DNA from: Bradyrhizobium guangzhouense | GTDB taxonomy: Bacteria; Pseudomonadota; Alphaproteobacteria; Rhizobiales; Xanthobacteraceae | DNA: 64,000 nucleotides | Reading direction: 5' to 3' | Assembly (NCBI RefSeq): GCF_004114955.1 | Contig: NZ_CP030053.1 | Span: 1,302,001-1,366,000, forward strand | In this document: one piece after another, positions 47,034 through 62,521 of the stretch | Layout: each line of letters starts with the position of its first letter | Position numbering within the stretch: the first letter of the stretch is position 1 | Notes under the pieces: model-generated | What the model saw: only the letters and a program-made list of their open reading frames with translations | Told to the model about the DNA's origin: nothing | Databases searched by the model: none | Position numbers and translations under genes: made by a program

Positions 47034-47741
47034 CTAGGTGCGCCTCGCCAGAAACCTCGCAATCGCCCCACCTAGCTTGGCGCTATCCATCGGCTCCGCC
47101 AGCGACGCTCTTGCCGTCGCAACAACATCCTCCGGCGCCTTGCCGTCGCGCAGGTCGCAGCAGACTTGTGCAAACTCCGCGTCGAACTCCGGATGTGGCT
47201 GCACAGTCAGTGTCGCGCCGTTGGCGTAGAGCAGGCCGGCATGCGGGGTGAATTCCGACGAGAGAATCGTCAGCGCGTCGTCAGGCGCTTCGATCACCTG
47301 GTCTTGATGCGAGCATGCAATCGCGACCGCTTCGCCCTCGACGACGCCATTCTCCGGCAGCACCTGATAAACGTGCCGGCCGATGCCCCAGCCCTTGTCC
47401 GACTTTCGCACGGTGCCACCGAGCGCCTGCGCGATCAGCTGATGGCCGAAGCAGACACCCACCATCGGTGTCCTGTTGGCATAGGCGGTGCGCACGAAAT
47501 CTTCCAGCGGCGCGATCCAGTCGAGCCCGTCATAGACGCCGGCAGCAGCCCCCGTGATCAGAACGGCTTCGAGCTTGCGCGGGTCGGGTAGCGCATCGCC
47601 ATTCGGGATGCTGACGACGTCAACGGTGGCCGTCGGATCCTCGGCGCGGACCATGCGCGCGAACATGTCCGGAAAGGAGCCGTGCTGCTCGCGATATTTT
47701 GGCGGGACCTGCCCGGTTTCGATAATGGTGATGCGTGCCAT
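47034..47741 (-). CDS. Class I glutamine amidotransferase-like protein
   Basis: A 235-residue stand-alone GATase1 protein. The catalytic triad is visible: Cys in GVCFGHQLIAQALGG, and His and Glu in TVQPHPEFD. Relatives include GMP-synthase-like amidotransferases and gamma-glutamyl hydrolases of PuuD type. No synthetase partner is adjacent. It follows the LysR gene on the same strand by 24 bases, so it may share that transcript and belong to the nitrogen-catabolic region. Confidence 0.88.
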   Translation of the reverse strand: MARITIIETGQVPPKYREQHGSFPDMFARMVRAEDPTATVDVVSIPNGDALPDPRKLEAVLITGAAAGVYDGLDWIAPLEDFVRTAYANRTPMVGVCFGHQLIAQALGGTVRKSDKGWGIGRHVYQVLPENGVVEGEAVAIACSHQDQVIEAPDDALTILSSEFTPHAGLLYANGATLTVQPHPEFDAEFAQVCCDLRDGKAPEDVVATARASLAEPMDSAKLGGAIARFLARRT

Positions 47742-47765
47742 GTGCCCCTCGGGTCAAAGGTGAGC

Positions 47766-48692
47766 TCAGTCGCTTCCTGCCCCATGTTGCTGGTGTGGCG
47801 CTGTGCACGCCAGGAGCGCGCTCTCCTTGCGGATCTCGCCGAGAAAGGCCTTTGCCAGGCGCGACAGCGGTTCGGCTTCCGACCATAACATATAGGCGAC
47901 CGCGCGTGTCGTCGGCGTGAATGGCCGGACCACGAGGCCGTGTCCGCCGTTCTGTCGCGGCGAGAAGGGATCGACCACGGCGGCACCGACGCCGGCGGCC
48001 GCGAGCACGCAGGCCGTATTGCAATAGCGCACCTCGACCGCCGGCTGGAATGGTGCGCCGGCGCGCGCAAAACTGTCGCGCACGGCTTCGCCAAGCCGCG
48101 TGCCGCGTTCGAGCCCGATGAAGGGCAGGCCGGACAGGTCGGAAGCCGAGATCACGGACTTGCCTGCGAGCGGATGCTGCGGCGGCAGCACGCAAACCAT
48201 CTCGCCGGTGTGCACCACCTCGTGCGCGATCCCAGGGTGATGCGTCAGTCCGAGCGCGAAGCCAAGCTCGGCGACGCGGCTCAGCACGCCTTCGATGATC
48301 CCTTCGTAGCGCCGGACATCGAAGAACACGCGCGTCTCCGGTCGTCGGCGCAGGAAGCCGGACAGCGCAGTGGGGATGATGCTGTAGGCGAGCGGCGGCG
48401 TCGCCACGATGGCGAGATGCCCGGCGCGATTCTCGCGCAGATCGCGCACGCGGTTCTCGAGCTTGGCGTGAAGCGCGAAGATCGCCTCGCTCTCCTTGTA
48501 GAGCGCCATCGCCTCCGCGGTCGGAAACAGCCGGTTGTTGATGCGCTCGAACAGCGCAAAGCCTGCCTGCGTCTCCATCGTCTTCAGCGCGTTGCTGACC
48601 GCAGGCTGCGACAGGGCCAGTTCGTCGGCCGCGGCGACCGTGGTGCGGTGGCGGATGACGGCACGCAGGATCTCGAGCTGGCGCAGGTTCAT
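47766..48692 (-). CDS. LysR family transcription regulator
   Basis: A 308-residue regulator with an N-terminal winged HTH (MNLRQLEILRAVIRHRTTVAAAD, LSQPAVSNALKTMETQAG) and a substrate-binding effector domain. I chose the start at 48692, where the HTH begins; the longer frame adds a non-family N-terminus. It is divergent from the N-carbamoyl-D-amino-acid hydrolase gene, 150 bases away, the usual layout for control of a neighbouring catabolic operon. The effector may be the imported ureide or amino acid. Confidence 0.9.
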   Translation of the reverse strand: MNLRQLEILRAVIRHRTTVAAADELALSQPAVSNALKTMETQAGFALFERINNRLFPTAEAMALYKESEAIFALHAKLENRVRDLRENRAGHLAIVATPPLAYSIIPTALSGFLRRRPETRVFFDVRRYEGIIEGVLSRVAELGFALGLTHHPGIAHEVVHTGEMVCVLPPQHPLAGKSVISASDLSGLPFIGLERGTRLGEAVRDSFARAGAPFQPAVEVRYCNTACVLAAAGVGAAVVDPFSPRQNGGHGLVVRPFTPTTRAVAYMLWSEAEPLSRLAKAFLGEIRKESALLACTAPHQQHGAGSD

Positions 48693-48723
48693 ATCACTGC
48701 CTGTTATACTCTGGACCAAAACA

Positions 48724-48737
48724 TCATAGCACGATGA
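48724..48737. promoter_or_regulatory. Possible LysR operator
   Basis: TCAT-AGCACG-ATGA, a short dyad in the divergent LysR/carbamoylase region, 32 bases from the LysR start. LysR proteins bind similar interrupted dyads. Weak evidence from sequence alone. Confidence 0.3.
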
Positions 48738-48843
48738 ATTGCTTTTGCAGCCCGGCCTGCGCCTAATGTCTTCGGATTTGCGCGTTGGATCAAAGGGTTC
48801 ACTCGCCCATTGAGGCAGCATTGCGCACAGATTGGAGGCAATC

Positions 48844-49800
48844 TTGGTTCGTATCCTTCGCGCCGCCGCGGCCCAAATGGGGCCGACGCAAAAAGCCGAT
48901 AGGCGCGAACATACGCTGTTGCGAATGCTGGTCATGCTGGAGGAGGCCGCCAGCCGCGGCGCCAGCCTCGTGGTGTTTCCGGAGCTGGCCTTCACCACGT
49001 TTTTTCCGCGCTGGCTTCTCGAGGGTGATGCGCTCGACCAGTATTTCGAGCGCGGGATGCCGAATCCGGCCGTGGCAAAGCTGTTTGACCGCGCGCGTGC
49101 GCTGCGCGTCGGCTTCTATGTCGGCTATGCCGAGCTGACCCCGGAAGGCCGCCGCTACAATTGCGCCATCCTGGTCGATCGCGACGGCGAGATCCTCGGC
49201 CGTTATCGCAAGGTACATCTGCCTGGCTCGGTCGAGCCGCGGGCGGGCGCGCGTTATCAGCAGCTCGAGAAGCGCTACTTTGAATATGGCGATCTCGGCT
49301 TTCCCGCCTTCCGTGCGGGATCTGCCTTGGCGCATGCGATCATGGGCATGATGATCTGCAACGATCGCCGCTGGCCGGAATCCTGGCGCGTGCTTGGCCT
49401 GCAAGGGGTGGAACTCGTCTGCATCGGCTACAATTCGGCGGCCTATGATCCCAATGGCGGCACTACCGAAGATGCTTCCTTGCGCACCTTCCACTCGACG
49501 CTGGTGACACAGGCCAACGCCTACATGAACGCGACCTGGGCGATCTCGGTGGCGAAAGCCGGCGACGAGGACGGCTCCGGCCTGATCGGCGGCTCCTGCA
49601 TCGTCGATCCCAATGGCCGCATCGTCGCGCAGGCCGCGACCTTGACCGATGAAGTCATCGTCGCCGACATCGATCTCGACCTCTGCCGCCAGGGCAAGGA
49701 CAAGATGTTCAATTTCGCCGCCCACCGGCGGCCAGAGCAATACAGGGTGATCACCGAGCGCGCCGGCGTCATCGAGCCGGCCGTGCTCGACGCGGACTGA
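48844..49800 (+). CDS. N-carbamoyl-D-amino-acid hydrolase
   Basis: A 318-residue carbon-nitrogen hydrolase that turns N-carbamoyl-D-amino acids into D-amino acids, carbon dioxide and ammonia. The nitrilase triad is complete: Glu in VVFPELAFTTFFPRW, Lys in GRYRKVHLPG and Cys in MMICNDRRWPE. From the TTG at 48844 the Glu and Cys fall at 47 and 172, which I recall as the active-site numbers of the Agrobacterium enzyme. That start follows GGAGG by five bases; an earlier TTG at 48832 overlaps the ribosome site. LEKRYFEYGDLGFPAF and FNFAAHRRPEQY also match. It leads the catabolic operon opposite a LysR gene. Confidence 0.9.
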   Translation: MVRILRAAAAQMGPTQKADRREHTLLRMLVMLEEAASRGASLVVFPELAFTTFFPRWLLEGDALDQYFERGMPNPAVAKLFDRARALRVGFYVGYAELTPEGRRYNCAILVDRDGEILGRYRKVHLPGSVEPRAGARYQQLEKRYFEYGDLGFPAFRAGSALAHAIMGMMICNDRRWPESWRVLGLQGVELVCIGYNSAAYDPNGGTTEDASLRTFHSTLVTQANAYMNATWAISVAKAGDEDGSGLIGGSCIVDPNGRIVAQAATLTDEVIVADIDLDLCRQGKDKMFNFAAHRRPEQYRVITERAGVIEPAVLDAD

Positions 49801-49856
49801 GCAAATGGCACGGCGCTGGCAATGGTTCGGTCAAGCAAAAGGTCGAAGGAACTGAC

Positions 49857-50684
49857 ATGACACGCCTCTCGCTTTCCCTCGGCTTCGCAGCGCTGGCTGC
49901 CGTGACGTCCGCGCGAGCGGCCGAGCTTCCGGCTGACATCAAGCAGGCAGGCACGCTGAAACTCACAGTCAACTCGACCTACGCGCCGATGGAATATCGC
50001 GATCCTGCCAGCAACGAGCTGGTCGGGCTCGATATTGATCTCGCCAATGAACTCGCCAAGCGGCTCGGGAGTCTCAAGATCGTCTGGAGCGAGACGCCGT
50101 TCGCCGAGCTGATCCCTTCGCTCCAGACCAAGCGCGCCGATTTCATCATCTCCGGCATCTCCGACCGCGCCTCGCGGCGCGAGAGCGCCGACTTCGTCGA
50201 TTACCTCACGACCGGTCCCCAGTTCTTCGTGATGGCGGAGAGCGCGGCGAAGGCCGCGACCGATCTCTGCGGCAGGAAGGTCGGCACCACGCGCAGCACC
50301 AGCTTCCCGGTCGAGATCGAGAAGTGGAGCAAGCTGAATTGCGAGGCGGCCGGCAAGCCGGCGATCCAATACGTGCCGGGCGAAAATTCGATCGACGTGC
50401 GCAATCAGCTCAGGCAAGGCCGCATCGACGCCGCGGTGCAGGGCAGCGAGACGTTGCCTTATGCGCAGACGCAGGAGCCCGGCAAATACCGCATCGTCGG
50501 CGAGGCTTTTGCCAAAGGCTATCAGGGCATCATGTTTCGCAAGGATGATGCAGCCTTGCGCGAGGTGGTGACGGAGAAGCTCACGGCGATGATCGCTGAC
50601 GGTTCCTACAAAGCGATTCTCGACAAATGGGGTCTGGGCGCGAATGCGGTCACCCAGCCCATGCTGAACGCGGCGCCGCAATGA
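49857..50684 (+). CDS. Amino-acid ABC transporter substrate-binding protein 1
   Basis: A 275-residue periplasmic binding protein of family 3 with a signal peptide (1-21, ending TSARA). Family features are YAPMEYRDPASNELVGLDIDL and IISGISDRASRRESADFVDYL. It brings an amino-acid-like ligand to the permease encoded next, whose start overlaps its stop (ATGA). The protein at 52316 is a clear paralogue, so the transporter has two receptors. Confidence 0.9.
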   Translation: MTRLSLSLGFAALAAVTSARAAELPADIKQAGTLKLTVNSTYAPMEYRDPASNELVGLDIDLANELAKRLGSLKIVWSETPFAELIPSLQTKRADFIISGISDRASRRESADFVDYLTTGPQFFVMAESAAKAATDLCGRKVGTTRSTSFPVEIEKWSKLNCEAAGKPAIQYVPGENSIDVRNQLRQGRIDAAVQGSETLPYAQTQEPGKYRIVGEAFAKGYQGIMFRKDDAALREVVTEKLTAMIADGSYKAILDKWGLGANAVTQPMLNAAPQ

Positions 50685-51538
50685 GGCCGGCGCCGGCACT
50701 CGCGGAGGGTTTTCCCGATCTCTCGGGAATGCAGATCGCGCGCGAGCCGCACTGGTTTCGCTGGATCAGCGCGGCCCTGATCGTCCTGGTGCTGGCGGCG
50801 ATCGCGCGCGCCTTCGCGAATGGCCAGATCGAATGGTCCTATGTCAGCCGCTTCCTGACGGCAAAAGTCATTCTCGAAGGCATCGTCAATACCATGGTGA
50901 TGGCGGTGCTGGCGATGGCGCTCGGCATCTTTCTCGGCATCGTCGTTGCGATCATGCGGCTGTCGCCCAATCCGGTGCTGAAGACGGTGGCTGCCGGCTA
51001 CACCTGGCTGTTCCGCGGCACGCCTCTGATCCTGCAATTGCTGCTGTGGTTCAACCTGGCGCTGGTGTTTCCAAGCATCGGCATTCCCGGCCTGTGGAGC
51101 GCACGGGCGGTCGACGTCATGACGCCGTTCCTGGCGGCGCTGCTCGGGCTCGGCATCAACCAGGGCGCCTATACGTCCGAAGTCATGCGCGCCGGCATGT
51201 TGTCGGTCGATATCGGCCAATATGAAGCGGCGCAGGCCATCGGCATGGGGCGGTTGCGCGCGCTGCGCCGGATCATTCTGCCGCAGGCCATGCGCGTGGT
51301 GATCCCGCCGCTCGGCAACGAGTTCATCGGTATGGTGAAGGCGACCTCGCTGGCGAGCGTGATTCAGTATCCGGAGGTGTTGCACAACGCCGAGAACATC
51401 TACTACGCAAATTCCCGCGTGATCGAGCTCCTGATCGTCGCCGGGCTCTGGTATCTGCTCGTCGTGTCGATCCTGACCCCGCTGCAAATGCTGCTCGAAC
51501 GCCGCTTTGCGCGCGGTACAGTGCGGCTCACACGATGA
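50681..51538 (+). CDS. Amino-acid ABC transporter permease
   Basis: A 285-residue inner-membrane permease of the HisM/GlnP type. The hydrophobic core begins at about residue 25, and the EAA loop reads [22 protein letters not shown]. Typical motifs are [15 protein letters not shown] and IKMV-like [15 protein letters not shown]. It overlaps both neighbours by four bases. A single permease implies a homodimer. The N-terminal 24 residues are longer than usual. Confidence 0.92.
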
Positions 51539-52299
51539 CAAAGCCCCTCGTCGCGATCCGCTCCGTCAGCAAGAGTTTTGGCGAGTTCCAGGCTCTCAAA
51601 AGCGTTTCGCTCGACGTCCAGCCCGGCGAGGTGATGTGCCTGATCGGCGCCTCCGGCTCCGGCAAGACCACGCTGCTCCGTTGCATCAATCAGCTCACCG
51701 CGATCGATGCTGGCGGCATCTGGCTCGATGGCGAGCTGCTGGGCGTGCGCGAGCAGGGCGGGCGGCTTTATCGGCTTTCCGAGCAGCAGATCGGGCGGCA
51801 GCGGTTGAAGACCGGCATGGTATTCCAGCGCTTCAACCTGTTTCCGCACAAGACTGCACTGGAGAATATTACGGAGGGCCCGCTCCAGGTGCAGGGCCGC
51901 AAGCCAGATGAGGTTCGCGCAGAGGCTCTGGCGCTGCTTCGGCGCGTCGGCCTGTCTGCCAAGGCCGACGCATATCCCGCGCAGCTCTCCGGTGGCCAGC
52001 AGCAGCGCGTCGCGATTGCGCGCGCGCTCGCGATGAAGCCGATGCTGATGCTGTTCGACGAGCCGACCAGCGCGCTCGATCCGGAACTCGTCGGCGAGGT
52101 GCTCGCGGTCATGAAGGAGCTGGCAAAGAGCGGCATGACCATGATGGTGGTGACGCACGAGCTCGGCTTCGCGCGCGAGGTCGCCGACAGGGTCGTCTAT
52201 ATGGACCAGGGCGCGATCGTCGAGCAGGGGCGCGCGCCCGACGTGCTGGGTGCGCCGCGCGAGGCGCGCACCAGGGCATTTCTTTCGGCTGTGATCTGA
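51535..52299 (+). CDS. Amino-acid ABC transporter ATP-binding protein
   Basis: A 254-residue ATPase of the GlnQ/HisP family. Walker A is [15 protein letters not shown], signature [15 protein letters not shown], Walker [21 protein letters not shown] and switch VVTHELGF. An extra loop ([22 protein letters not shown]) is like that of HisP. Starts four bases inside the permease gene and energises it. Confidence 0.93.
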
Positions 52300-52315
52300 C
52301 ATTGGGGGCGACTTG

Positions 52316-53131
52316 ATGAAGAGAATCTTGGTTGCGGCGGCGCTGTTCGGCGCCATGACCGTGTCGGCTTTGGCGATTGATCTGCCGCCTGACATCGCCA
52401 AACGCGGCAGCCTCAAGGTGGGGCTGGTGCCGAACTATCCGCCGATGGAGTTCCGCGATCCTGCCACCAACGCGCTGTCCGGCTTCGACGTCGACCTCGG
52501 CGAGGCGCTCGGACGCAAGCTCGGCGTCAAGATCGAATGGACCGAGACCAGCTTTGCCGAATTCATGCCGTCGATCTCGACGGGCCGGGTGGATGCGATC
52601 CTGTCCGGCTTCACCGATTATGCGAGCCGGCACGAGATCGCCTCCTTTGTCGATTATCTGCGCAGCGGTCCAAAATTCTTCGTGCAGCAGTCCCGTGCGA
52701 CGGAGTTCAAGGACATGGCCGTGTTGTGCGGCAAGAAAGTCGGCGCCAGCCGCCGGACCATGTTTCCGGCAGAGATCGACAAATGGAGCCAGAAGAATTG
52801 CGCCGGCAATCCGATCCAGTTCGTCGGCACCGACGGCTCGGCCGATGCGCGCACGCAGCTCAAGCAGGGCCGTATCGACGCCGCAGTGCAGGGCAACGAG
52901 ACGCTGCCCTATTTGATGGATCTCGAGCGGGGCGCCTATGCGCCGGTCGGTGATCCCTTCGCAACGCAGTTCACCGGCATCGCACTGCCGGTTAAAGAGA
53001 AGGTGTTGCAGCAGGCGGTTGCCGACGCGCTCGATGCGTTGATCGCGGACGGGACCTACAAGACCCTGCTTGCCAAGTGGAAGTTGACAGATAACGCAGT
53101 CGAAAAGGCAACAATCAATGCTGGACAGTAA
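52316..53131 (+). CDS. Amino-acid ABC transporter substrate-binding protein 2
   Basis: A 271-residue family 3 binding protein with a signal peptide (1-20 or so, ALFGAMTVSALA). It parallels protein 1 across its length (YPPMEFRDPATNALSGFDVDL, ILSGFTDYASRHEIASFVDYL), with perhaps 40-45 per cent identity by eye. I use the ATG at 52316 rather than the preceding TTG; GGGGGCG lies upstream. Having two receptors on one permease/ATPase set suggests two related ligands, for example both enantiomers or ring-open and closed forms. That is inference. Its end overlaps the next gene by 14 bases. Confidence 0.9.
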   Translation: MKRILVAAALFGAMTVSALAIDLPPDIAKRGSLKVGLVPNYPPMEFRDPATNALSGFDVDLGEALGRKLGVKIEWTETSFAEFMPSISTGRVDAILSGFTDYASRHEIASFVDYLRSGPKFFVQQSRATEFKDMAVLCGKKVGASRRTMFPAEIDKWSQKNCAGNPIQFVGTDGSADARTQLKQGRIDAAVQGNETLPYLMDLERGAYAPVGDPFATQFTGIALPVKEKVLQQAVADALDALIADGTYKTLLAKWKLTDNAVEKATINAGQ

Positions 53132-54002
53132 GGCCCTCCAGAGCATCCCGCTCACCCCAGCCAACACCGCGGATCCCGCGCCTGATTATCCGTGGCCCAA
53201 GCCGTTCAAATCGGCGATGTTCCTGTCCTTCGACGTTGATGCCGAGACCGCATGGACGAGCAAGGATGCGCTGCATGCGCAGCGGCTCATCACCATGAGC
53301 TATGGCGGCTACGAGGCGCGGGTCGGCACGCCGAAGCTGCTGGAACTGCTCGACCAACTCGATCTCAAGGCGACCTTCTTTGTCACGGGCTGGTCGGTCG
53401 ATGCGCATCCGGCCATGGCGGAGGCCATCCTCAAGGCCGGTCACGAGATCGGCCATCACGGCTATCACCATCTGCTGCCGGATCCCGGCGATCCCTGGAT
53501 CGAGGAGGAACTGGAGCGGGGTTTCGAGGCGCTGAAGCGCAGGCTCGGCGTGAAGCCATCAGGCTATCGCGCGCCTTACGGCGAATTCACCGAGGAACTG
53601 CGCGTCGCGCTGGTGCGTCACGGTATCGTCTACACGTCCTCGTTCCGTGACGACGTCAGGCCCTATCGTCATCGTCTCGCCGACGGCAAGCCCGGCACGA
53701 TCGAGCTGCCGGTGACCGCGAGCTATGACGACTGGATGCATGGCCTCTCGGCCCGCTTCAGCCCCCGCTCGATCTTCCCCAAGGAGCATGTGCTCTCGAT
53801 CTGGAAGGACGAACTGGATGAGGTGCGCGATTGGGGCGCGATGGTGACGACCGTGCTGCATCCGCAATGCAGCGGCCGTCCGATGCGTCTGCGCCTGCTG
53901 CGCGAGTTCCTCACCTATGCGAAGTCGTGCCCTGACGTCTGGATCACCACCGGCGAGAAGATCGCGGAAAACTTCCTGCGCCACGAGGCCGCCAACCGTT
54001 GA
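53118..54002 (+). CDS. Polysaccharide-deacetylase-fold hydrolase (PuuE / HpPgdA / cyclic-imide-hydrolase-like)
   Basis: A 294-residue cytosolic NodB-fold protein without a signal peptide. Motif 1 is FLSFDVDAETAW (metal/base aspartates), motif 2 is EIGHHGYHHLLP, motif 3 GYRAPYGEFTEEL, with a late CPDVWITTGEKIAENF. This branch includes PuuE allantoinase, a metal-independent ring opener, and cyclic imide hydrolases. Lack of export argues against a cell-wall deacetylase. It sits between transport and racemase genes in the ureide operon, which fits opening of a hydantoin- or imide-type ring. The substrate is not established. Confidence 0.8.
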   Translation: MLDSKALQSIPLTPANTADPAPDYPWPKPFKSAMFLSFDVDAETAWTSKDALHAQRLITMSYGGYEARVGTPKLLELLDQLDLKATFFVTGWSVDAHPAMAEAILKAGHEIGHHGYHHLLPDPGDPWIEEELERGFEALKRRLGVKPSGYRAPYGEFTEELRVALVRHGIVYTSSFRDDVRPYRHRLADGKPGTIELPVTASYDDWMHGLSARFSPRSIFPKEHVLSIWKDELDEVRDWGAMVTTVLHPQCSGRPMRLRLLREFLTYAKSCPDVWITTGEKIAENFLRHEAANR

Positions 54003-54023
54003 GAAGTGCCAGTGAGCCCTGCC

Positions 54024-54680
54024 ATGACCCATCGCCGCATCCTCGTCATCAATCCCAACTCCTCGGCGTCGGTGACGGCGGCGATCGACGACGCGGTGGC
54101 GCCGTTGCGGATATCAGGCGGGCCCGAGATCGAGGTTGTCGGGCTTGCCGAGGGACCGCCGAGCATCAGCTCGCAGCGCGATGCCGACAGCGTCGTGATG
54201 CCGCTGGTGGGGCGCGTCTCGCGTGACGATGCAGACGCATTCGTGCTCGCCTGCTTCAGCGATCCCGGGCTGCATGCGGTGCGCGAGGCGGCGGACGGGC
54301 GCCCGGTGATGGGCATCGCCGAATGCGGCATCTTTCGTGCGCTGACACTCGGTGAGCGTTTCGGCATCATCGCGCTGTCGCCGTCCAGCATCCGCCGCCA
54401 GCAGCGCATGGCCCGGGTGATGGGCGTCGATGGCCGCTACGCCGGAAGCTGGTCGGTCGGCGCGAGCGCGGCGGAGACGGCAGGCGCGGACATCCGCGGC
54501 CGGTTGATCGAGGCAGGCCGCTCGCTGGTCACGCAATATCGCGCCGATGTCGTGGTGATGGGCTGTGCCGGCATGGCCTCGCATCGTGCCGCGATTGCCG
54601 ATGCTATTGGCGTGCCCGTGGTCGAGCCGGCGCAGCAGGCGGTGGCCGTCGCGATCGGCGCGGTCTTGCTCAACACATGA
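54024..54680 (+). CDS. Aspartate/glutamate/hydantoin racemase family protein
   Basis: A 218-residue cofactor-independent racemase of the hydantoin-racemase group. RILVINPNSSASVTAAIDDAV is the family N-terminus. Two cysteines that usually act as acid/base pair are in VLACFSDPGL and VVMGCAGMA. I chose ATG 54024, but GTG codons at 54006 and 54012 are possible. The gene follows the NodB-fold hydrolase and would interconvert the enantiomers of its substrate before the D-specific carbamoyl hydrolase. Confidence 0.88.
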   Translation: MTHRRILVINPNSSASVTAAIDDAVAPLRISGGPEIEVVGLAEGPPSISSQRDADSVVMPLVGRVSRDDADAFVLACFSDPGLHAVREAADGRPVMGIAECGIFRALTLGERFGIIALSPSSIRRQQRMARVMGVDGRYAGSWSVGASAAETAGADIRGRLIEAGRSLVTQYRADVVVMGCAGMASHRAAIADAIGVPVVEPAQQAVAVAIGAVLLNT

Positions 54681-54726
54681 AGTGCAAATCGTGGAGCTTC
54701 GACGTGTTCTGGAACGTGCGCCCCGC

Positions 54727-56100
54727 ATGAGCACCACAGCAATCTTCGGCAGCTACGTGCTGTCACGCAAGGACGGCGCGCAGGACGTGCTGCGCGATCA
54801 TTGGGTCCTGGTCGAAGGCAAGAAGATTGCCGCAGTCACGCGCGACAAGCCCAGTGCGGATCAAACTTACGACCGCCCCGGCCGCTTCGTGCTGCCGGGC
54901 CTGTTGAATTTGCACAATCATTGCTTCAGCGAGGCCGTGGCGCGCAGCCATAGCGAGGACGGCAACGGCCGCAAGAACAACCAGAGCATCGTCTACACGG
55001 TGCTGCTGCCGCTAACCAAGCGCGGCGCCGAAATCCTGTCGCCGGAAGAGCGGCTTGCGGTGGCGCGGCTCGGCATCCTCCAGCTTCTCAAGGGCGGCGC
55101 CACCACGGTGATGGAGCCGTTCCGCAACTCGATCCCGGAGATGTTCGACGCAGCGGAAGAGATGGGCATCCGCTTCTACGGCGCGCCCTATCTGTTTTCG
55201 ACGTCCGACGCCAAAGCGGGCGCCGACGGCGTGGTCCGCTATTCCGGCGATGACGGCGCCGCCGACATGGCGACATGGGATGCGCTCTACCAGCGCTGGA
55301 ACAATCGCGGCGATGGCCGCATCGGCCTCGCGATGAGCCCGCACGCCACCGACACCTGTGGTCCCGATCTGCTGAAAGCCTGCGCGACGCGGGCGCGCGA
55401 GCTCGGTGTGCCCATCACCACGCACATGGCGCAGAGCCGCGCCGAGGTCGAGACCATCGGCAAGCGCTATGGCGGCCGTACGCCGGCCGAGTATCTGGAT
55501 TGGCTGGGCCTGCTGGCGCCGGATCTGATGGCCGCGCATTGCATGTTCAGCAGCGACGACGATCTCAAGCTGATGGCTGCGCGCGGCATGACTGTTCTGA
55601 ATTGCCCGCGCGTGTTCGCGCGCGCCGGCGTCACCGCCGCCTTCAGCCGCTTCGCCGAGCACGGCGTGCGCACCGTTGTCGGCACAGATGGCTACAACAT
55701 GGACCTGCTCGGCGAGCTCAACGCGGCCTCGCTGATCTCCAAGGTTACCTCAGCGCGCGCGGACGTCGCCAACTCACCGGCGCTGATCGAGGCGAACACG
55801 GTTGTCGCCGCCGACGTCATCAAGCGGCCGGACCTGGGCCGGATCGAGCCCGGTGCGACCGCCGATCTCACCGTCGTCGATCTCACCCATCCGCATCTCC
55901 AGCCGCTGTTCGATCCGCGCCGCGCGCTGATCGCGTTGGCCAATCGGGCCAATATCGATCAGGTCATGGTCGACGGCCGTGTGCTGGTGGATGAAGGACG
56001 CTATCTCGGTGCGGATGAAGCGGCGATCACAGCGGCGGGCACCGCCGCGATCGGCAAGATATGGGATCTGCCCGAGGCGCAGGCCGCGTTCAACGGCTAG
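54727..56100 (+). CDS. Amidohydrolase, ATZ/TRZ (SsnA-like) family
   Basis: A 457-residue metal-dependent hydrolase of the amidohydrolase superfamily. The metal site appears as GLLNLHNHCFSEAV (HxH), TTHMAQS, AAHCMFS and GTDGYNMDLL. Members deaminate or dechlorinate nitrogen heterocycles or remove amino groups from purine-like rings. It follows the racemase gene by 46 bases, so it may be part of the same operon. The exact substrate is open; it could act on the same imported ring compound. Its stop overlaps the convergent LysR stop by four bases. Confidence 0.88.
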   Translation: MSTTAIFGSYVLSRKDGAQDVLRDHWVLVEGKKIAAVTRDKPSADQTYDRPGRFVLPGLLNLHNHCFSEAVARSHSEDGNGRKNNQSIVYTVLLPLTKRGAEILSPEERLAVARLGILQLLKGGATTVMEPFRNSIPEMFDAAEEMGIRFYGAPYLFSTSDAKAGADGVVRYSGDDGAADMATWDALYQRWNNRGDGRIGLAMSPHATDTCGPDLLKACATRARELGVPITTHMAQSRAEVETIGKRYGGRTPAEYLDWLGLLAPDLMAAHCMFSSDDDLKLMAARGMTVLNCPRVFARAGVTAAFSRFAEHGVRTVVGTDGYNMDLLGELNAASLISKVTSARADVANSPALIEANTVVAADVIKRPDLGRIEPGATADLTVVDLTHPHLQPLFDPRRALIALANRANIDQVMVDGRVLVDEGRYLGADEAAITAAGTAAIGKIWDLPEAQAAFNG

Positions 56101-57008
56101 CTCTCGAACTCCGCAAGCGACTTGCGCATGGTCTCGACCAGATCGAGCGCCACCGGCGAGGGGCTGCGCTGTGCCGGAAACACCGCGGAGAATTCGAAGT
56201 CGATGCGCGGCAGGAAGCGGCGCACGACGACGCCACGGGTGGAGAATTCCTGCGCGGTGAAGGGATCGCAGATCGCGACGCCCAGTCCCGATGACACCAT
56301 GCCGCACATGATCTCGGACAGCGCGGTCTCCACCCGCAGCACGCGGCGGACGTCGTGACGATGGAAGATCTGGTCGACCAGATGCCGGCTCGAGGAGCCC
56401 GCCGAGAGCGAGATGAAGGTCTCGCCCTCGAAGTCGCGCGGTTCCAAGACTTCTTTCTCCGCGAGACGATGTCCGCTCGGCAGCACCGCAACGCGCGCCG
56501 GCGCCGGCAGCTTCTGGCTCGGCAGGCCGGAATGTGCGATCGGCACCTCGGCAAAGCCGACGTCGCATTGATTGTTCAGCACCCAATCGACCACGATCGG
56601 CGAGATCACGCCGAAGAAGGCGAGGTTGAGATTCGGCCGCTCCTTCAGGAAGTGACCGGTGAGCCGCGGCAGATAGCCGTTCGACAGCGCCGGCAGTGCT
56701 GCGATCCGCAGCGAGCCGGTGCGGCGTCCCCGGATTTCCTCCGCTGCCGCGGTGATGCGTTCGAGGCCGACGAAGGAGCGCTCCACCTCGGTATAGAGCG
56801 CCATCGCTGCCGCGGTCGGCACGAGGCCGGTGCCGCGCCGCTCGAACAGCTCCATCTTCAACAGCGCCTGGAGGTCACGGAGCAACCGGCTGACCGCCGG
56901 CTGGGTCACCGCCATCAGCGTTGCCGCTTCGGTGACGCTGCCGGTCAGCATCATTGCGCGGAAAGCCTCCACCTGCCGCGAATTGATCCGGACCATCGCA
57001 AATCTCAT
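56097..57008 (-). CDS. LysR family transcription regulator
   Basis: A 303-residue LysR regulator. The HTH reads RINSRQVEAFRAMMLTGSVTEAATLM, then TQPAVSRLLRDLQALLKMELFER. The effector domain follows from residue 90. It is divergent from the transporter gene at 57271, with a 262-base control region between, so it probably governs the second catabolic operon. It is distinct from the LysR at 47766. Confidence 0.9.
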   Translation of the reverse strand: MRFAMVRINSRQVEAFRAMMLTGSVTEAATLMAVTQPAVSRLLRDLQALLKMELFERRGTGLVPTAAAMALYTEVERSFVGLERITAAAEEIRGRRTGSLRIAALPALSNGYLPRLTGHFLKERPNLNLAFFGVISPIVVDWVLNNQCDVGFAEVPIAHSGLPSQKLPAPARVAVLPSGHRLAEKEVLEPRDFEGETFISLSAGSSSRHLVDQIFHRHDVRRVLRVETALSEIMCGMVSSGLGVAICDPFTAQEFSTRGVVVRRFLPRIDFEFSAVFPAQRSPSPVALDLVETMRKSLAEFES

Positions 57009-57270: not shown

Positions 57271-58308
57271 ATGAAGACTCTTCGCCTCCTGACCGCGGTC
57301 AGCATCGCAGCGCTCATCGCCACCCCGACGGCCGTCTCGGCCCAGCAGAAAACGCTCTATGTCGCCGGCTATGGCGGCTCGTTCGAGAAGACCATCCGCG
57401 ACGAGGTGATCCCGACCTTCGAGAAGGAGAACAACGTCAAGGTCGAGTACGTCGCCGGCAACTCCACCGATACGCTGGCAAAACTCCAGGCGCAGAAGGG
57501 CAACCAGCAGATCGATGTCGCCATCGTCGACGATGGCCCGATGTACCAGGCGATCCAGCTCGGCTTCTGCGGCAAGCTCGACGGCCTGCCGGCTGCCGAT
57601 CTCTACGACACCGCGCGCTTCAAGGACGATCGCGCGGTCGCGATCGGCATCGTCGCGACCGGCCTCATGTACAACACCAAGGTGTTTGCCGAGAAAGGCT
57701 GGGCGCCGCCGACCTCGTGGAACGATCTGAAGGATACGAAATACGCAAAACAGCTCGTGATTCCGCCGATCAACAACACCTATGGCCTCGAAGCGCTGGT
57801 GATGCTGTCCAGGATGAACGGCGGCGGCGAGGCCAACGTCGATTCCGGCTTCAAGATCTTCAAGGACGAGATCAATCCGAACGTGCTGGCCTACGAGCCG
57901 TCGCCGGGCAAGATGACCGAGCTGTTCCAGTCCGGCCAGGCCGTGATCGCGGTGTGGGGCACCGGGCGCGTGAAGAGCTTTGCCAACACCGGCTTCCCCG
58001 TCGACTTCGTCTATCCGAAGGAAGGCGCGGCGACGCTGCTGACGACGGCGTGTCCGATCAACAAGCCCAACGCCTCGCCGCTGGCGTCCAGCTTCGTCAA
58101 GATGCTGCTCGATCCAAAAATCCAGCTCGTGATGCTGAAGGACTACGGCTACGGCCCGGTGCTGAAATCGCTGAAGGTGCCGTCCGAGCTCGGCAAGATG
58201 GCGCCGATCGGCGAGCGTGCCGCAAAACTCTATAATCCTGATTGGACCACCATCAACGAGAAGCGCGAGGAGTGGACCAAGCGCTGGAACCGCGAGGTCG
58301 AGCGCTGA
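57271..58308 (+). CDS. ABC transporter substrate-binding protein, spermidine/putrescine type
   Basis: A 345-residue periplasmic binding protein (PotD/family 8 type) with a signal peptide (1-24, ending TAVSA). TLYVAGYGGSFEKTIRDEVIPTFEKE is a typical start of the mature protein, and VIPPINNTYGLEAL and VIAVWGTGRVKSFAN are in the ligand cleft. I chose the start at 57271 (MKTLRLLTAV). It heads a plus-strand operon of ATPase, two permeases and a dehydrogenase. Ligands of this class include polyamines, opines and betaines. Confidence 0.9.
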   Translation: MKTLRLLTAVSIAALIATPTAVSAQQKTLYVAGYGGSFEKTIRDEVIPTFEKENNVKVEYVAGNSTDTLAKLQAQKGNQQIDVAIVDDGPMYQAIQLGFCGKLDGLPAADLYDTARFKDDRAVAIGIVATGLMYNTKVFAEKGWAPPTSWNDLKDTKYAKQLVIPPINNTYGLEALVMLSRMNGGGEANVDSGFKIFKDEINPNVLAYEPSPGKMTELFQSGQAVIAVWGTGRVKSFANTGFPVDFVYPKEGAATLLTTACPINKPNASPLASSFVKMLLDPKIQLVMLKDYGYGPVLKSLKVPSELGKMAPIGERAAKLYNPDWTTINEKREEWTKRWNREVER

Positions 58309-58335
58309 TCTGATCGTCCGCAGCGGAGAGAGCGC

Positions 58336-59376
58336 ATGGCCTATCTCGAGCTCGATCGGCTAGCAAAGCAGTTCGGCACGCAGACTGTGGTCGACGACTT
58401 CAGTCTGTCGGTGGGGAAGGGGGAGTTCATCTCCTTCCTCGGCCCCTCCGGCTGCGGCAAGACCACGACCTTGCAGATGATCGCGGGCTTCCTCGACCCC
58501 ACGCGCGGCGCGATTCGCCTGGAGGGCAAGGACCTGACTGCGATCCATCCGGCCAAGCGCGGGCTCGGCATCGTGTTCCAGAGCTACGCGCTGTTTCCGC
58601 ACATGACCGCGGCGGAGAACGTCGCGTTCGGCCTCGAGATGCGTGGCGTGCCGCGCAACGAACGGGCCGAGCGCGTGCGCGCCGCGCTCGCGATGGTCGG
58701 CCTCGCCGGTTATGAGGACCGCCACCCCCGCCGCATGTCCGGCGGCCAGCAGCAGCGCGTGGCCCTGGCGCGCGCGCTGGTGATCAAGCCGAGCGTGCTG
58801 CTGCTCGACGAGCCGCTGTCGAACCTCGACGCAAAGCTTCGCGAGGAAATGCAGATCGAGCTGCGCCAGATCCAGCGCACCATCGGCACCACCACCATCC
58901 TCGTCACTCACGACCAGAACGAGGCGATGTCGCTCTCCGGCCGCATCGTGGTGATGAGCCAGGGCAAGATCGAGCAGATCGGCACGCCGCAGGAAACCTA
59001 TGAGCGGCCGGCTTCGGCCTTCGTCTCGCAGTTTTTGGGCAAGACCAACGACTTCGCCGGGACGATCGATCGAACCGCAGCATCGGCACGGATCGTCGCT
59101 GGATCGTGGAGCGCGCCGGCGCCTGCTGGCCTTAATGGCGTAGTCACGGTGAGCATTCGCCCCGAGCGCATCGGCTTCGGTGACGCCGGGCTCGGCGCAA
59201 AGATCGTCACGCGCATCTTCCAGGGCAATCACTGGCTGTTCCAGTGCGACAGCGAATGCGGCCCGGCGATCGTGATCCGCCAGAATGACGGTCTCAGTCA
59301 ACCGGCTGAAGGCGAGGATGTGCGTCTCACTTGGCGTCCGGAAGACATGAGCGTGCGCACGAGGGCTGGCGCATGA
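58336..59376 (+). CDS. ABC transporter ATP-binding protein, PotA-like
   Basis: A 346-residue importer ATPase. Walker A is GPSGCGKTTTLQMIAG, signature [15 protein letters not shown], Walker B LLLDEPLSNLDAKLREEM and switch VTHDQNEAMSLS. A C-terminal TOBE domain (about 240-340) binds transport regulators or adds specificity. It lies 27 bases after the binding protein and overlaps the first permease by four bases. Confidence 0.93.
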   Translation: MAYLELDRLAKQFGTQTVVDDFSLSVGKGEFISFLGPSGCGKTTTLQMIAGFLDPTRGAIRLEGKDLTAIHPAKRGLGIVFQSYALFPHMTAAENVAFGLEMRGVPRNERAERVRAALAMVGLAGYEDRHPRRMSGGQQQRVALARALVIKPSVLLLDEPLSNLDAKLREEMQIELRQIQRTIGTTTILVTHDQNEAMSLSGRIVVMSQGKIEQIGTPQETYERPASAFVSQFLGKTNDFAGTIDRTAASARIVAGSWSAPAPAGLNGVVTVSIRPERIGFGDAGLGAKIVTRIFQGNHWLFQCDSECGPAIVIRQNDGLSQPAEGEDVRLTWRPEDMSVRTRAGA

Positions 59377-60248
59377 GTGCGGCCACCGAGGCGCGCAGCG
59401 CACGTGCGCCCTGGGCGCTGACCGCGCCCGCCTTGATGCTCTTCGTCGGCGTGCTGCTGATCCCGCTCGCCATGACCGTGATGCTGTCGTTCCATGATTG
59501 GGGCCAGTACAAGGGCATCGAGCCGGTCTTCATCCTGAAGAACTGGCGGGAGATCGCGACCGATCCCTACTACGCCGAAATGTTCTGGCGGACCTTTCGC
59601 ATCGGGATCCTGACCACGCTGCTCACCGCCGTCCTGGGCGCACCCGAGGCCTATATCCTCAACCGCATGAGCGGCCGCTGGAAGAGCTTCTTCCTGCTGG
59701 TCATTCTCGGCCCGCTGCTGATCTCCGTGGTGGCGCGCACGCTCGGCTGGGCACTGCTGTTCGGCGGCAACAACGGTCTCGTCAACAAGCTCTTGATGTC
59801 GCTTGGCGCAATCCATTCCCCCATTCCCTTCATGTTCACCGAAACAGGCATGGTGGTGGCGCTGGCGCATGTGATGATGCCGTTCATGGTGCTGTCGGTC
59901 TGGGCGGCTCTGCAGCGGCTCGATCCGCAGATCGAGAACGCGGCGATGTCGCTCGGCGCGGGACCTGTCACCATCATCCGACGCATCATCATGCCGCAGA
60001 TCATGCCTGGCGTGTTGTCGGGCGCGATCATCGTCTTTTCGCTCTCGGCCAGCGCTTTCGCGACGCCCGCGATCATCGGCGGCCGCAGGCTGAAGGTCGC
60101 AGCCACGCTCGCCTATGACGAGTTCCTCAACACGCTGAACTGGCCGCTCGGCGCGGCGGTCGCGACGCTCTTGCTGGCGGCGTTGGTGCTGATCGTCGTC
60201 GGCAGCAATGCCTTGATCGAACGCCGCTACGCCGAGGTGTTCCGATGA
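59373..60248 (+). CDS. ABC transporter permease, PotB-like
   Basis: A 291-residue inner-membrane permease. The EAA motif reads ENAAMSLGAGPVTIIRRIIMPQIMPG, and six helices start at about residue 15 (ALTAPALMLFVGVLLIPLAM). It overlaps the ATPase (ATGA) and the second permease. It pairs with the PotC-like protein. Confidence 0.92.
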   Translation: MSAATEARSARAPWALTAPALMLFVGVLLIPLAMTVMLSFHDWGQYKGIEPVFILKNWREIATDPYYAEMFWRTFRIGILTTLLTAVLGAPEAYILNRMSGRWKSFFLLVILGPLLISVVARTLGWALLFGGNNGLVNKLLMSLGAIHSPIPFMFTETGMVVALAHVMMPFMVLSVWAALQRLDPQIENAAMSLGAGPVTIIRRIIMPQIMPGVLSGAIIVFSLSASAFATPAIIGGRRLKVAATLAYDEFLNTLNWPLGAAVATLLLAALVLIVVGSNALIERRYAEVFR

Positions 60249-61051
60249 GACGGAACGGCCCGCTTGCGCTGATCTTCCACGGCATCTTCGTCATCGTCAT
60301 GGTGGCGCCGATCCTGGTGGTCTGCCTCGTCGCCTTCACGCCCGAGGGCTTTCTGTCGCTTCCGACCAATGGATTCTCGCTGCGCTGGTTCAGGGCGATC
60401 GGGCAATATCCGGAATTCATCCATGCCTTCTGGGTCAGCCTTGGTCTCGGCGCACTGTCATCCTTCGTCGCGCTGCTGTTCGCCGTGCCCGCAGCACTGG
60501 CAATCGCACGCTATCGCTTCCGCGGCCGCGATGCGCTGGCGGCACTGTTCCTGTCGCCGCTGATGATCCCGCATGTGGTGCTCGGCATCGCCTTCCTGCG
60601 TTTCTTCACATCCGTTGGCTTCGGTGGCAGCTTCACCGCGCTGATCATCGCCCATGTCATCATCGTGTTTCCGTTTGCGCTGCGCCTGACGCTGGCAGCG
60701 GCGACCGGCATGGACCGCACGGTCGAGATGGCCGCAGTCTCGCTCGGCGCCGGCGGCTGGACGTTGTTCCGCCGCGTGACCTTGCCGCTGATCATGCCCG
60801 GCGTCATCAGCGGCTGGGCGCTCGCCTTCATTCAGTCCTTTGACGATCTGACGATGACCGTCTTCCTCGCCGCGCCCGGCACCGAGACGTTGCCCGTGCG
60901 CATGTTCCTTTATATCCAGGACAACATCGATCCGCTGGTGACCTCGGTCTCGGCCTGCGTGATCGCTGTGACCATGACCGCCCTCATTCTGCTCGACCGT
61001 TTCTACGGGCTCGACCGCGTGCTCGCCGGCAAGGGCGATCCGGGACGATAG
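60245..61051 (+). CDS. ABC transporter permease, PotC-like
   Basis: A 268-residue permease partner with motif EMAAVSLGAGGWTLFRRVTLPLIMPG and the C-terminal helix VTSVSACVIAVTMTALIL. It completes a transporter of binding protein, ATPase and two permeases, and precedes a flavoprotein by eight bases. Confidence 0.92.
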   Translation: MRRNGPLALIFHGIFVIVMVAPILVVCLVAFTPEGFLSLPTNGFSLRWFRAIGQYPEFIHAFWVSLGLGALSSFVALLFAVPAALAIARYRFRGRDALAALFLSPLMIPHVVLGIAFLRFFTSVGFGGSFTALIIAHVIIVFPFALRLTLAAATGMDRTVEMAAVSLGAGGWTLFRRVTLPLIMPGVISGWALAFIQSFDDLTMTVFLAAPGTETLPVRMFLYIQDNIDPLVTSVSACVIAVTMTALILLDRFYGLDRVLAGKGDPGR

Positions 61052-61059
61052 GAGAACCC

Positions 61060-62196
61060 ATGCGAACTGAATACGACGTCGCCGTCGTCGGCGGCGGATT
61101 GCTCGGCTCCGCCATCGCCTGGGGCCTCGGCCGGCTCGGCAAGAGCGTGGCCGTGCTCGACGAAGGCGACATCACCAAGCGCGCCTCGCGCGCCAACTTT
61201 GCGCTGGTCTGGGTGCAGAGCAAGGGCCTCGGCATGCCCGCTTACACGGTCTGGACCGTGCAGGCCTCGCAAGCCTGGGGCCGGCTGGCGTCCGAACTGA
61301 AGCAGCAGACCGGTCTCGACGTCGCGCTCCAGCAAAATGGCGGCTTCCATCTCACGCTCGGCGAGGACGAATTCGGCCAGCGCACGGAGCTCGTCACGCG
61401 CATGCATAACCAGGCCGGCGCCGCCGATTACAAGATGGAGATGCTCTCGGCGTCGGACGTCAAGAAGTCGCTGCCGCTGATCGGCCCTGAGGTTTCCGGC
61501 GGCAGCTATTGTCCGCTCGATGGTCACGTCAATTCGCTGCGCACGTTCCGCGCCTTTCACACCGGCTTCAAGGCATTCGGCATCGATTATTTCCCGGAGC
61601 GTCCGGTCTCTGCCATCAGCAGGAGCGGCGGCGAATTCTGCCTGACCACGCCGAAAGGCGAGCTACGCGCCGCCAAAATCGTGCTCGCCGCGGGCAACGC
61701 CAACCAGATGCTGGCGCCGATGGTAGGCCTCCACGCGCCAATGGGGCCGACGCGCGGCCAGGTCGTGGTGACCGAGCGCACCATGCCGTTCCTGCCGCAT
61801 CCCCTCACCACGATCCGCCAGACCGACGAAGGCACGGTGATGATCGGCGACAGCAAGGAAGACGAGCTGGATGATCGTACGCTGAAGCCGTCGATCAGCG
61901 GCGTGATGGCCGATCGCGCGCAGCGCATGTTCCCGCATTTGTCGCGGCTCAACGTTGTCAGGAGCTGGTCCGGCATCCGTGTCATGCCGCAGGACGGCTT
62001 TCCGATTTACGATCAGTCGGAGACCCATCCCGGCGCCTTCGTCGCCTGCTGCCATTCCGGCGTGACGCTCGCCTCCAACCATGCCTTCGAGATCGCGCGC
62101 ATGGTGGCGCAGGGCGCGCTCGAGCCTGAGCTGGTCGGCGCGTTTTCCGCGAGCCGTTTTGGCGGTGCGGGCGCGGCAAACAACAGCGGCTATTAG
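61060..62196 (+). CDS. FAD-dependent amino-acid/opine dehydrogenase, DAO subunit
   Basis: A 378-residue flavoprotein of the DAO family. The dinucleotide fold is DVAVVGGGLLGSAIAWGLGRLG, and the C-terminal FAD loop is WSGIRVMPQDGFPIYD. With the next two genes it matches the three-subunit D-hydroxyproline dehydrogenase and opine oxidase plan: catalytic DAO, small 2Fe-2S protein, and NAD/FAD protein. It oxidises an imino or amino acid. Gene order matches transport then oxidation of the same substrate. Confidence 0.88.
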   Translation: MRTEYDVAVVGGGLLGSAIAWGLGRLGKSVAVLDEGDITKRASRANFALVWVQSKGLGMPAYTVWTVQASQAWGRLASELKQQTGLDVALQQNGGFHLTLGEDEFGQRTELVTRMHNQAGAADYKMEMLSASDVKKSLPLIGPEVSGGSYCPLDGHVNSLRTFRAFHTGFKAFGIDYFPERPVSAISRSGGEFCLTTPKGELRAAKIVLAAGNANQMLAPMVGLHAPMGPTRGQVVVTERTMPFLPHPLTTIRQTDEGTVMIGDSKEDELDDRTLKPSISGVMADRAQRMFPHLSRLNVVRSWSGIRVMPQDGFPIYDQSETHPGAFVACCHSGVTLASNHAFEIARMVAQGALEPELVGAFSASRFGGAGAANNSGY

Positions 62197-62224
62197 AAAT
62201 TCTGGGGGGAGCCACGAGGCATCC

Positions 62225-62521
62225 ATGTTTAGACGATCCGAACAGGACAAACGTCCGCAAGTGCAGATCTTCGTCGACGGCGTCGCCGTCGCGGCGCGCC
62301 AGGGCGACACCGTCTCTGCCGCATTGCTGGCCTCCGGCCAAGATGCAAGGCGCTCTACAGCAGTGAGCGGTGCGCCGCGTTTGCCCTATTGCATGATGGG
62401 CGTGTGCTTCGACTGCCTCGTCACCATCGACGGCGTCGGCAATCGCCAGGGCTGCCTCGTTCCCGTCGCCGAGGGTATGCAGGTCGAGATCCAGAAGGGC
62501 AAGCGGGAGATCGGACGATGA
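62225..62521 (+). CDS. Small 2Fe-2S subunit (LhpF/HcnA-like)
   Basis: A 98-residue iron-sulfur protein. Four cysteines in PYCMMGVCFDCLVTIDGVG and QGCLVPV form the expected 2Fe-2S site of the C-x4-C-x2-C type. It would carry electrons between the two flavoprotein subunits. The start at 62225 is preceded by GGGGGGAGC and it overlaps the next gene by four bases. Confidence 0.9.
   Translation: MFRRSEQDKRPQVQIFVDGVAVAARQGDTVSAALLASGQDARRSTAVSGAPRLPYCMMGVCFDCLVTIDGVGNRQGCLVPVAEGMQVEIQKGKREIGR

Follow-up and report, generated by a model that had tools for sequence, protein, structure and literature searches.

Genes at the locus

The DNA analysed here is a window of 64,000 nucleotides from Bradyrhizobium guangzhouense (contig NZ_CP030053.1, positions 1,302,001 to 1,366,000 of the forward strand), in which a LysR-linked gene cluster combines a carbon-nitrogen (CN) hydrolase of the N-carbamoyl-D-amino-acid hydrolase family (also called the carbamoylase below), an amino-acid-type ATP-binding cassette (ABC) transporter, a NodB-fold protein (NodB below), a racemase and an ATZ/TRZ-type amidohydrolase. 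This gene set is conserved, and it looks like a relative of the known hydantoin and imide breakdown systems. Eight genes from the CN hydrolase through the amidohydrolase (48844-56100) run divergently from the regulator gene LysR1, and their intergenic gaps of 56, -4, -4, 13, -14, 3 and 46 bases suggest that they would form one transcript. An earlier description made from the letters of the window (the sequence-only reading) had named these genes and their families, all of which were recovered by family profile matches at the positions it gave; the glutamine amidotransferase gene at 47034-47741 had gone unmentioned there despite falling in its range.

The features are listed below, with residues of the CN hydrolase numbered from 48832. 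Locus counts refer to 80 related loci, the best of 129 relatives obtained in one scan with the NodB protein; nearly all are Bradyrhizobium, NodB is present in every one by construction, and the presence of the other genes was counted at an identity of at least 60%.

47034-47741, minus strand: class I glutamine amidotransferase gene, just 3' of LysR1 (PF00117, 51.4 bits); adjoins the cluster in 59 of 80 loci
47766-48698, minus strand: LysR1, putative divergent regulator (PF03466/PF00126); in 78 of 80 loci
48699-48843, no strand: LysR1-carbamoylase intergenic region with conserved blocks (alignment with 78 relatives)
48844-49800, plus strand: N-carbamoyl-D-amino-acid-hydrolase-like CN hydrolase, Gln144 subfamily (PF00795, 172 bits; Gln codon 49261-49263)
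49857-50684, plus strand: amino-acid-type binding protein 1 (PF00497)
50681-51538, plus strand: ABC permease (PF00528, matched in a longer reading frame, 50627-51538; ATG at 50681)
51535-52299, plus strand: ABC ATPase (best model EhuA, 313.3 bits, under the cut-off of 345.4)
52313-53131, plus strand: amino-acid-type binding protein 2 (PF00497)
53118-54002, plus strand: NodB-fold small-ring hydrolase candidate (PF01522, 78.7 bits; Asp39, Asp41, His114, His118, Arg151 and His248 in invariant columns)
54006-54680, plus strand: Asp/Glu/hydantoin racemase (PF01177, 165 bits; Cys83, Cys187)
54700-54730, plus strand: match to the 3' end of an SBP5 gene, read as a deletion scar; its final 4 bases are the amidohydrolase start
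54727-56100, plus strand: ATZ/TRZ-type amidohydrolase (PF01979, 157.7 bits; His63, His65, His233, His271, Asp321, Gln236)
56097-57008, minus strand: LysR2, convergent; in 55 of 80 loci

Translation of the CN hydrolase more likely begins at the TTG at 48844, ahead of which the alignment with 78 relatives shows a conserved GGAGG; the best match of the enzyme in the PDB is the D-carbamoylase 8i99 (345 bits). The binding-protein transporter of the sequence-only reading is present, but it has two binding proteins, and a gene for a third, of the SBP5 type, is found in 78 of 80 loci and absent from the window. Positions 54700-54730 align with the 3'-terminal 31 bp of this SBP5 gene (blastn, 93.5%, E 3e-7), and the simplest reading of this match is that the gene was lost by a deletion which left a scar.

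Conservation of the operon

The amidohydrolase, the ATPase and binding protein 2 each occur in 79 of 80 loci, LysR1, the CN hydrolase, binding protein 1 and the permease each in 78, and the amidotransferase in 59; the racemase, with 55, is ruled out as a constant member. Eight core genes, taken as LysR1, the CN hydrolase, the two binding proteins, the permease, the ATPase, NodB and the amidohydrolase, without the racemase, stand in identical order in 77 of the 80 loci, the three exceptions being L104, which lacks the amidohydrolase where its contig ends, L139 and L151. The sequence-only reading had proposed a comparison of gene co-occurrence across Bradyrhizobium, which we carried out independently of the NodB loci in 36 genomes of the genus, that of the window included, at identities of at least 93% for NodB, 84% for the amidohydrolase and 83% for the carbamoylase. 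NodB is found in 17 of the 36 genomes, and exactly these 17 also have the amidohydrolase; a close carbamoylase is present in 16 of them and additionally in the genome G010. Given this shared set of genomes and the core order in 77 of 80 loci, the gene set is conserved and not a product of chance.

Outside the genus, Terrarubrum, Roseomonas haemaphysalidis and the genome G054 retain most of the core. One record titled Frankia sp. RB7 (L087) carries a cluster with a NodB 97% identical to that of the window, and is probably mislabelled or contaminated.

NodB groups structurally with small-ring hydrolases

In a structural ranking with VIA-align, the closest neighbours of NodB are 3rxz, 3qbu, 3s6o, 1z7a and 3cl6, and the structural Z falls from 31.0 to 22.8 beyond the group of PuuE, HP0310 and 3rxz. 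NodB lies within the PuuE/HP0310 structural subgroup with its metal ligands kept, and groups with PuuE, HP0310 and 3rxz, not with sugar deacetylases. The sequence-only reading is supported in so far as a NodB-fold protein of the small-ring (PuuE/HP0310) type shares a conserved operon with a racemase and a member of the carbamoylase family. By sequence NodB scores 172.5 bits to 3rxz and 93.9 bits to 3qbu. Because of this structural grouping and the retained metal site, NodB is best read as a cytosolic opener of imide or ureide rings, its activity being predicted; its N-terminus, inspected by eye, is not hydrophobic.

A role as the PuuE allantoinase of the genome is ruled out, since the protein exceeding the PuuE cut-off is a separate one at C1:2223019 (546.4 bits to TIGR03212), and NodB, with 67.9 bits against a cut-off of 424.6, differs from PuuE in falling far under that model while keeping the metal site. 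Among the NodB-fold cyclic imide hydrolases, namely the imidase of Pseudomonas putida YZ-26 and HxnM of Aspergillus nidulans, and HP0310, the gene partners differ from those in the window, NodB is 28% identical to 3qbu, and the likeness to the YZ-26 imidase and HxnM is one of structural subgroup. Excerpts of PMC9304392 describe the fungal NodB-fold imidase HxnM as working with the amide hydrolase HxnN. In the PMC literature, outside which most subscription journals lie, we found no paper joining cyclic imide hydrolase with polysaccharide deacetylase and none on cyclic imide hydrolase with half-amide, and for polysaccharide deacetylase with hydantoinase and carbamoylase a Haloferax expression paper was the single match.

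A Gln144 subfamily of carbamoylase-like enzymes

The Glu-Lys-Cys triad reported by the sequence-only reading is there as Glu51, Lys127 and Cys176, kept in the window and in 78/78 relatives, all of which came from the NodB-fetched loci. Likewise kept in 78/78 are His129, Arg175, Arg176 and His215, the equivalents of His128, Arg174, Arg175 and His214 of 8i99, which excerpts of PMC3546935 list as residues of N-carbamoyl-D-amino-acid hydrolase. The same excerpts place His144 among the residues assumed to govern substrate recognition and describe it as highly conserved in the aligned D-carbamoylases, and in the model of PMC11503299 it interacts with the ligand. The triad is intact, but there are fixed changes, with Gln in place of His144 in the window and 78/78 relatives, and with the Thr-Pro of a later loop, the substrate loop, replaced by Ser-Ala in all 78. 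Both His and Thr-Pro are kept in the two other homologues of the genome, to whose canonical copy the operon enzyme is 55-56% identical, and in 6/6 canonical copies that lie beside the clusters of relatives. The Gln144 form also occurs in Terrarubrum, R. haemaphysalidis and G054 and, separately from NodB, in Roseomonas mucosa TT14 and G010. Judged from these residues, the operon carbamoylase is a distinct subfamily. The sequence-only reading ended its pathway in a D-amino acid; the carbamoylase-family enzyme is present, but with His144 lacking, a D-amino-acid product is unsafe to assume, and the annotation "N-carbamoyl-D-amino-acid hydrolase" may mislead for the Gln144 subfamily.

A 2012 study reported 3-4 D-carbamoylase genes in each of three Bradyrhizobium strains and just one cluster bearing a hydantoinase (PMC3546935). 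One such extra carbamoylase is shown here to sit with constant partners in a conserved operon and to have a fixed change in its pocket. The third D-carbamoylase homologue of the genome (G000 C1:5454586; L159/L193), with canonical His and Thr-Pro, lies apart from both clusters.

Amidohydrolase and racemase

In the amidohydrolase, His63, His65, His233, His271 and Asp321, which we take to include the metal ligands, are conserved in 97% or more of the 80 aligned sequences, as is Gln236, which stands three residues past the third His and is found in the G054 enzyme too. The PDB relatives 3hpa, 7ww2 and 4dyk, of which only 7ww2 is named a deaminase, have Glu at this position, a residue that serves catalysis in ATZ/TRZ deaminases and that the operon enzyme does not have. 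Cys83 and Cys187 of the racemase are both kept in 57/57 sequences, giving the two-Cys pattern of the hydantoin racemase superfamily, where they presumably play their usual role. Twelve of the 80 loci, distinct from the eleven with a dihydroorotase-family enzyme or D-hydantoinase described below, carry a 389-aa amidohydrolase of another family.

Hydantoinases in the genome and beside the operon

The pathway had been described as lacking a classical hydantoinase, which is true inside the operon, where open reading frames and family profile matches gave none between 48844 and 56100, but false for the genome and the neighbourhood. Two proteins exceed the D-hydantoinase cut-off (C1:4690936 and C1:6431550), of which the first has a canonical D-carbamoylase and a transporter of the oligopeptide type as neighbours (L044), and four HyuA genes exceed the Pfam cut-off. 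A HyuAB pair (L043 7836-11581; Pfam 272 and 504 bits) begins 15.6 kb past the amidohydrolase and shares 92% identity with the pair directly after the amidohydrolase in L054, one of three loci (with L124 and L134) in which HyuAB abuts the operon. Downstream stretches of ten relatives contained HyuA in seven (L183-L187, L189, L190), with HyuB where the stretch reaches far enough, and a D-hydantoinase in two (L191, L192); in L188 neither HyuA nor D-hydantoinase was found within 19.9 kb.

Within or beside the operon itself, a dihydroorotase-family enzyme lies between the racemase and SBP5 in 5 of 80 loci (in L054 a protein of 439 aa, 684 bits and over the cut-off for NF006559, 211 bits and under it for the D-hydantoinase model), and a D-hydantoinase with a canonical carbamoylase adjoins the operon in six further loci. 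These 11 of 80 loci show that such enzymes coexist with NodB, not that NodB is never lost, because the loci were fetched with NodB. The racemase is present in all five dihydroorotase loci, and Terrarubrum has a racemase (80%) followed by a dihydroorotase-family enzyme (84%), so that racemase and cyclic amidohydrolase may be an old pair whose second half was lost in the window; in the six D-hydantoinase loci the racemase of the operon was found, at 60% identity or more, in none.

Compared with hyu clusters, which consist of D-hydantoinase, D-carbamoylase and hydantoin racemase, the operon is alike in its carbamoylase-family enzyme, racemase and transporter. It differs in having no hydantoinase, in its constant NodB and ATZ/TRZ amidohydrolase and in Gln for His144. 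At L044, away from the operon, the genome also encodes a D-hydantoinase/D-carbamoylase pair that keeps the canonical residues.

A sister clade of NodB proteins

In the NodB tree, seven rows form a sister clade (98/94 for the clade itself, 100/100 for its union with the clade of the window); PuuE is a very long branch of unsure placement. The sister-clade loci carry amino-acid transporter genes and ArgH in 7/7, MmgE/PrpD in 6/7 and agmatinase in 3/7, and gave no match to the amidohydrolase or racemase of the window. A gene annotated as racemase-family does lie nearby in the Chelatococcus record, and the nearest relatives of the MmgE/PrpD protein from Agrobacterium are cis-aconitate decarboxylase and IDS-epimerase. 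Clusters of the type LysR-ArgH-ABC-MmgE/PrpD-NodB occur in rhizobia and relatives (L160, L174-L179), one of them on Sinorhizobium pSymB. Such clusters, in Sinorhizobium, Agrobacterium and relatives, share with the operon a core of amino-acid ABC transporter, NodB and LysR gene, and have ArgH, MmgE/PrpD and agmatinase, without a carbamoylase match, as features of their own; the PMC literature yielded no paper combining four of the subjects MmgE, LysR, catabolism, polysaccharide deacetylase and argininosuccinate lyase. NodB-fold small-ring hydrolases are thereby linked to two kinds of rhizobial gene cluster.

It is possible, though doubtful, that these are two sister families of catabolic clusters built on the shared LysR, amino-acid ABC and NodB core, which would together define an undescribed route of cyclic imide or ureide breakdown. 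One family would then add the Gln144 carbamoylase and the Gln-type amidohydrolase, the other ArgH, mostly MmgE/PrpD and sometimes a ureohydrolase; the substrates would be N-substituted and aspartate-like, NodB would be the common ring opener, and the "D-carbamoylase" would not be a D-carbamoylase.

Interpretation and alternatives

We favour, with a probability of about 45%, an import-and-breakdown operon under the control of LysR1 for a small, probably carboxylate-bearing N-heterocycle of the cyclic imide or ureide kind, acting beside hydantoinases instead of replacing them. The substrate would be imported by the polar-amino-acid ABC transporter, and NodB, in the cytosol and with one Asp-His-His-bound metal ion, would open the imide or ureide ring. 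The amidohydrolase, the closest partner of NodB within Bradyrhizobium, would hydrolyse this compound at a further step. The CN hydrolase, with its changed pocket, would cleave off a terminal carbamoyl or amide group, while the racemase would admit both enantiomers, and the operon would operate alongside the nearby HyuAB or D-hydantoinase.

Several observations weigh against this explanation. The PDB entry 3rxz bears a putative name only, and excerpts of PMC3084791 report no activity of HP0310 on allantoin or any other compound tested there. The amidohydrolase beside NodB in G054 is just 30% identical, no carbamoylase match was found in any of the seven sister-clade loci, and in Kozakia and Pantoea a NodB (66-67%) stands with transporter genes or a binding protein, with no carbamoylase or amidohydrolase match in 18.9 kb. 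More generally, the parts are separable, so that one linear pathway is not forced.

This separability is the strength of an alternative that we regard as unlikely, in which one transporter operon serves two independent functions, the carbamoylase and racemase salvaging N-carbamoyl or D-amino acids and NodB and the amidohydrolase degrading a different heterocycle. R. mucosa TT14 has LysR, the Gln144 carbamoylase and a racemase, with no NodB or amidohydrolase match within the 19.9 kb read, and among Roseomonas plasmid (not chromosome) records, carbamoylase relatives (E <= 1e-60) occur in 13 and NodB relatives (E <= 1e-40) in 3. In G010, the genes after LysR1 and a Gln144 carbamoylase (84%) encode a canonical carbamoylase and a transporter of the oligopeptide type, and nowhere does this genome have a close NodB or the amidohydrolase of the operon. 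A strict dependence of the carbamoylase on NodB is ruled out by R. mucosa and G010. Conversely, L139 has NodB and the amidohydrolase only, the rest of the core being absent, and L151, a contig of G012, has lost LysR1 to permease and kept NodB and the amidohydrolase, with no close carbamoylase elsewhere in that genome; the sister clade shows NodB with other partners again. Against this alternative, the core stays intact in 77 of 80 loci and mostly so in three further lineages, and the G010 copy may be a decaying remnant, since it has a transposase-like gene close by and diverges in a stretch that is normally conserved.

In L053 (6368-8324), the relative that lost LysR1 to permease, proteins resembling PxpA-type 5-oxoprolinase components (by eye) lie just upstream of the remaining cluster. 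A plasmid of Sulfitobacter sp. SK012 (L180) has, in one run, a racemase, NodB, a carbamoylase with the canonical His, a dihydropyrimidinase and another NodB, and HyuAB adjoins this run on the opposite strand; by eye, one NodB protein is PuuE-like and the other HP0310-like.

A pure cyclic-imide route, in which NodB would turn an imide into a half-amide from which the CN hydrolase, as a half-amidase, would yield a dicarboxylate and ammonia, with neither ureide nor D-amino acid, seems to us rather improbable. The HxnM-HxnN partnership (PMC9304392, in excerpt) and a CN hydrolase that lacks the reported recognition His while keeping both Arg residues would suit it, but the racemase and the 55-56% closeness to the canonical D-carbamoylase suit ureides better, and the amidohydrolase is left without a role.

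The proposal of the sequence-only reading, that a cyclic ureide is ring-opened, racemised and decarbamoylated to a D-amino acid with NodB, or less likely the amidohydrolase, in place of a missing hydantoinase, is not supported and appears improbable. It accommodates an operon without its own hydantoinase, the carbamoylase family and triad, a racemase with both Cys and a small-ring NodB, but it is at odds with the genome's two D-hydantoinases and four HyuA genes, the HyuAB pair downstream, the coexistence in 11 of 80 loci, the Sulfitobacter run that joins two NodB proteins with a carbamoylase and a dihydropyrimidinase, the change of His144 to Gln and the occurrence of the carbamoylase apart from NodB in R. 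mucosa and G010. That NodB is an ordinary polysaccharide or peptidoglycan deacetylase placed in the operon by chance, as the Pfam family name and database names such as "polysaccharide deacetylase" would have it, is hardly credible in view of the drop in structural Z beyond the small-ring group, the N-terminus and the 17 of 36 genomes shared with the amidohydrolase.

Neighbouring operon

Downstream, a neighbouring operon (window 57271-63936 and L043 33-1154) has its own regulator gene, LysR2, which likely controls it, an SBP_bac_8 transporter, a DAO-family oxidase, a protein with Pyr_redox_2, SO_alpha_A3 and BFD domains and, by eye, a second FAD oxidase. We take these oxidases to resemble multi-subunit D-amino-acid, opine or hydroxyproline dehydrogenases. 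The stretch from LysR2 to the first oxidase adjoins the cluster in 53-55 of 80 loci.

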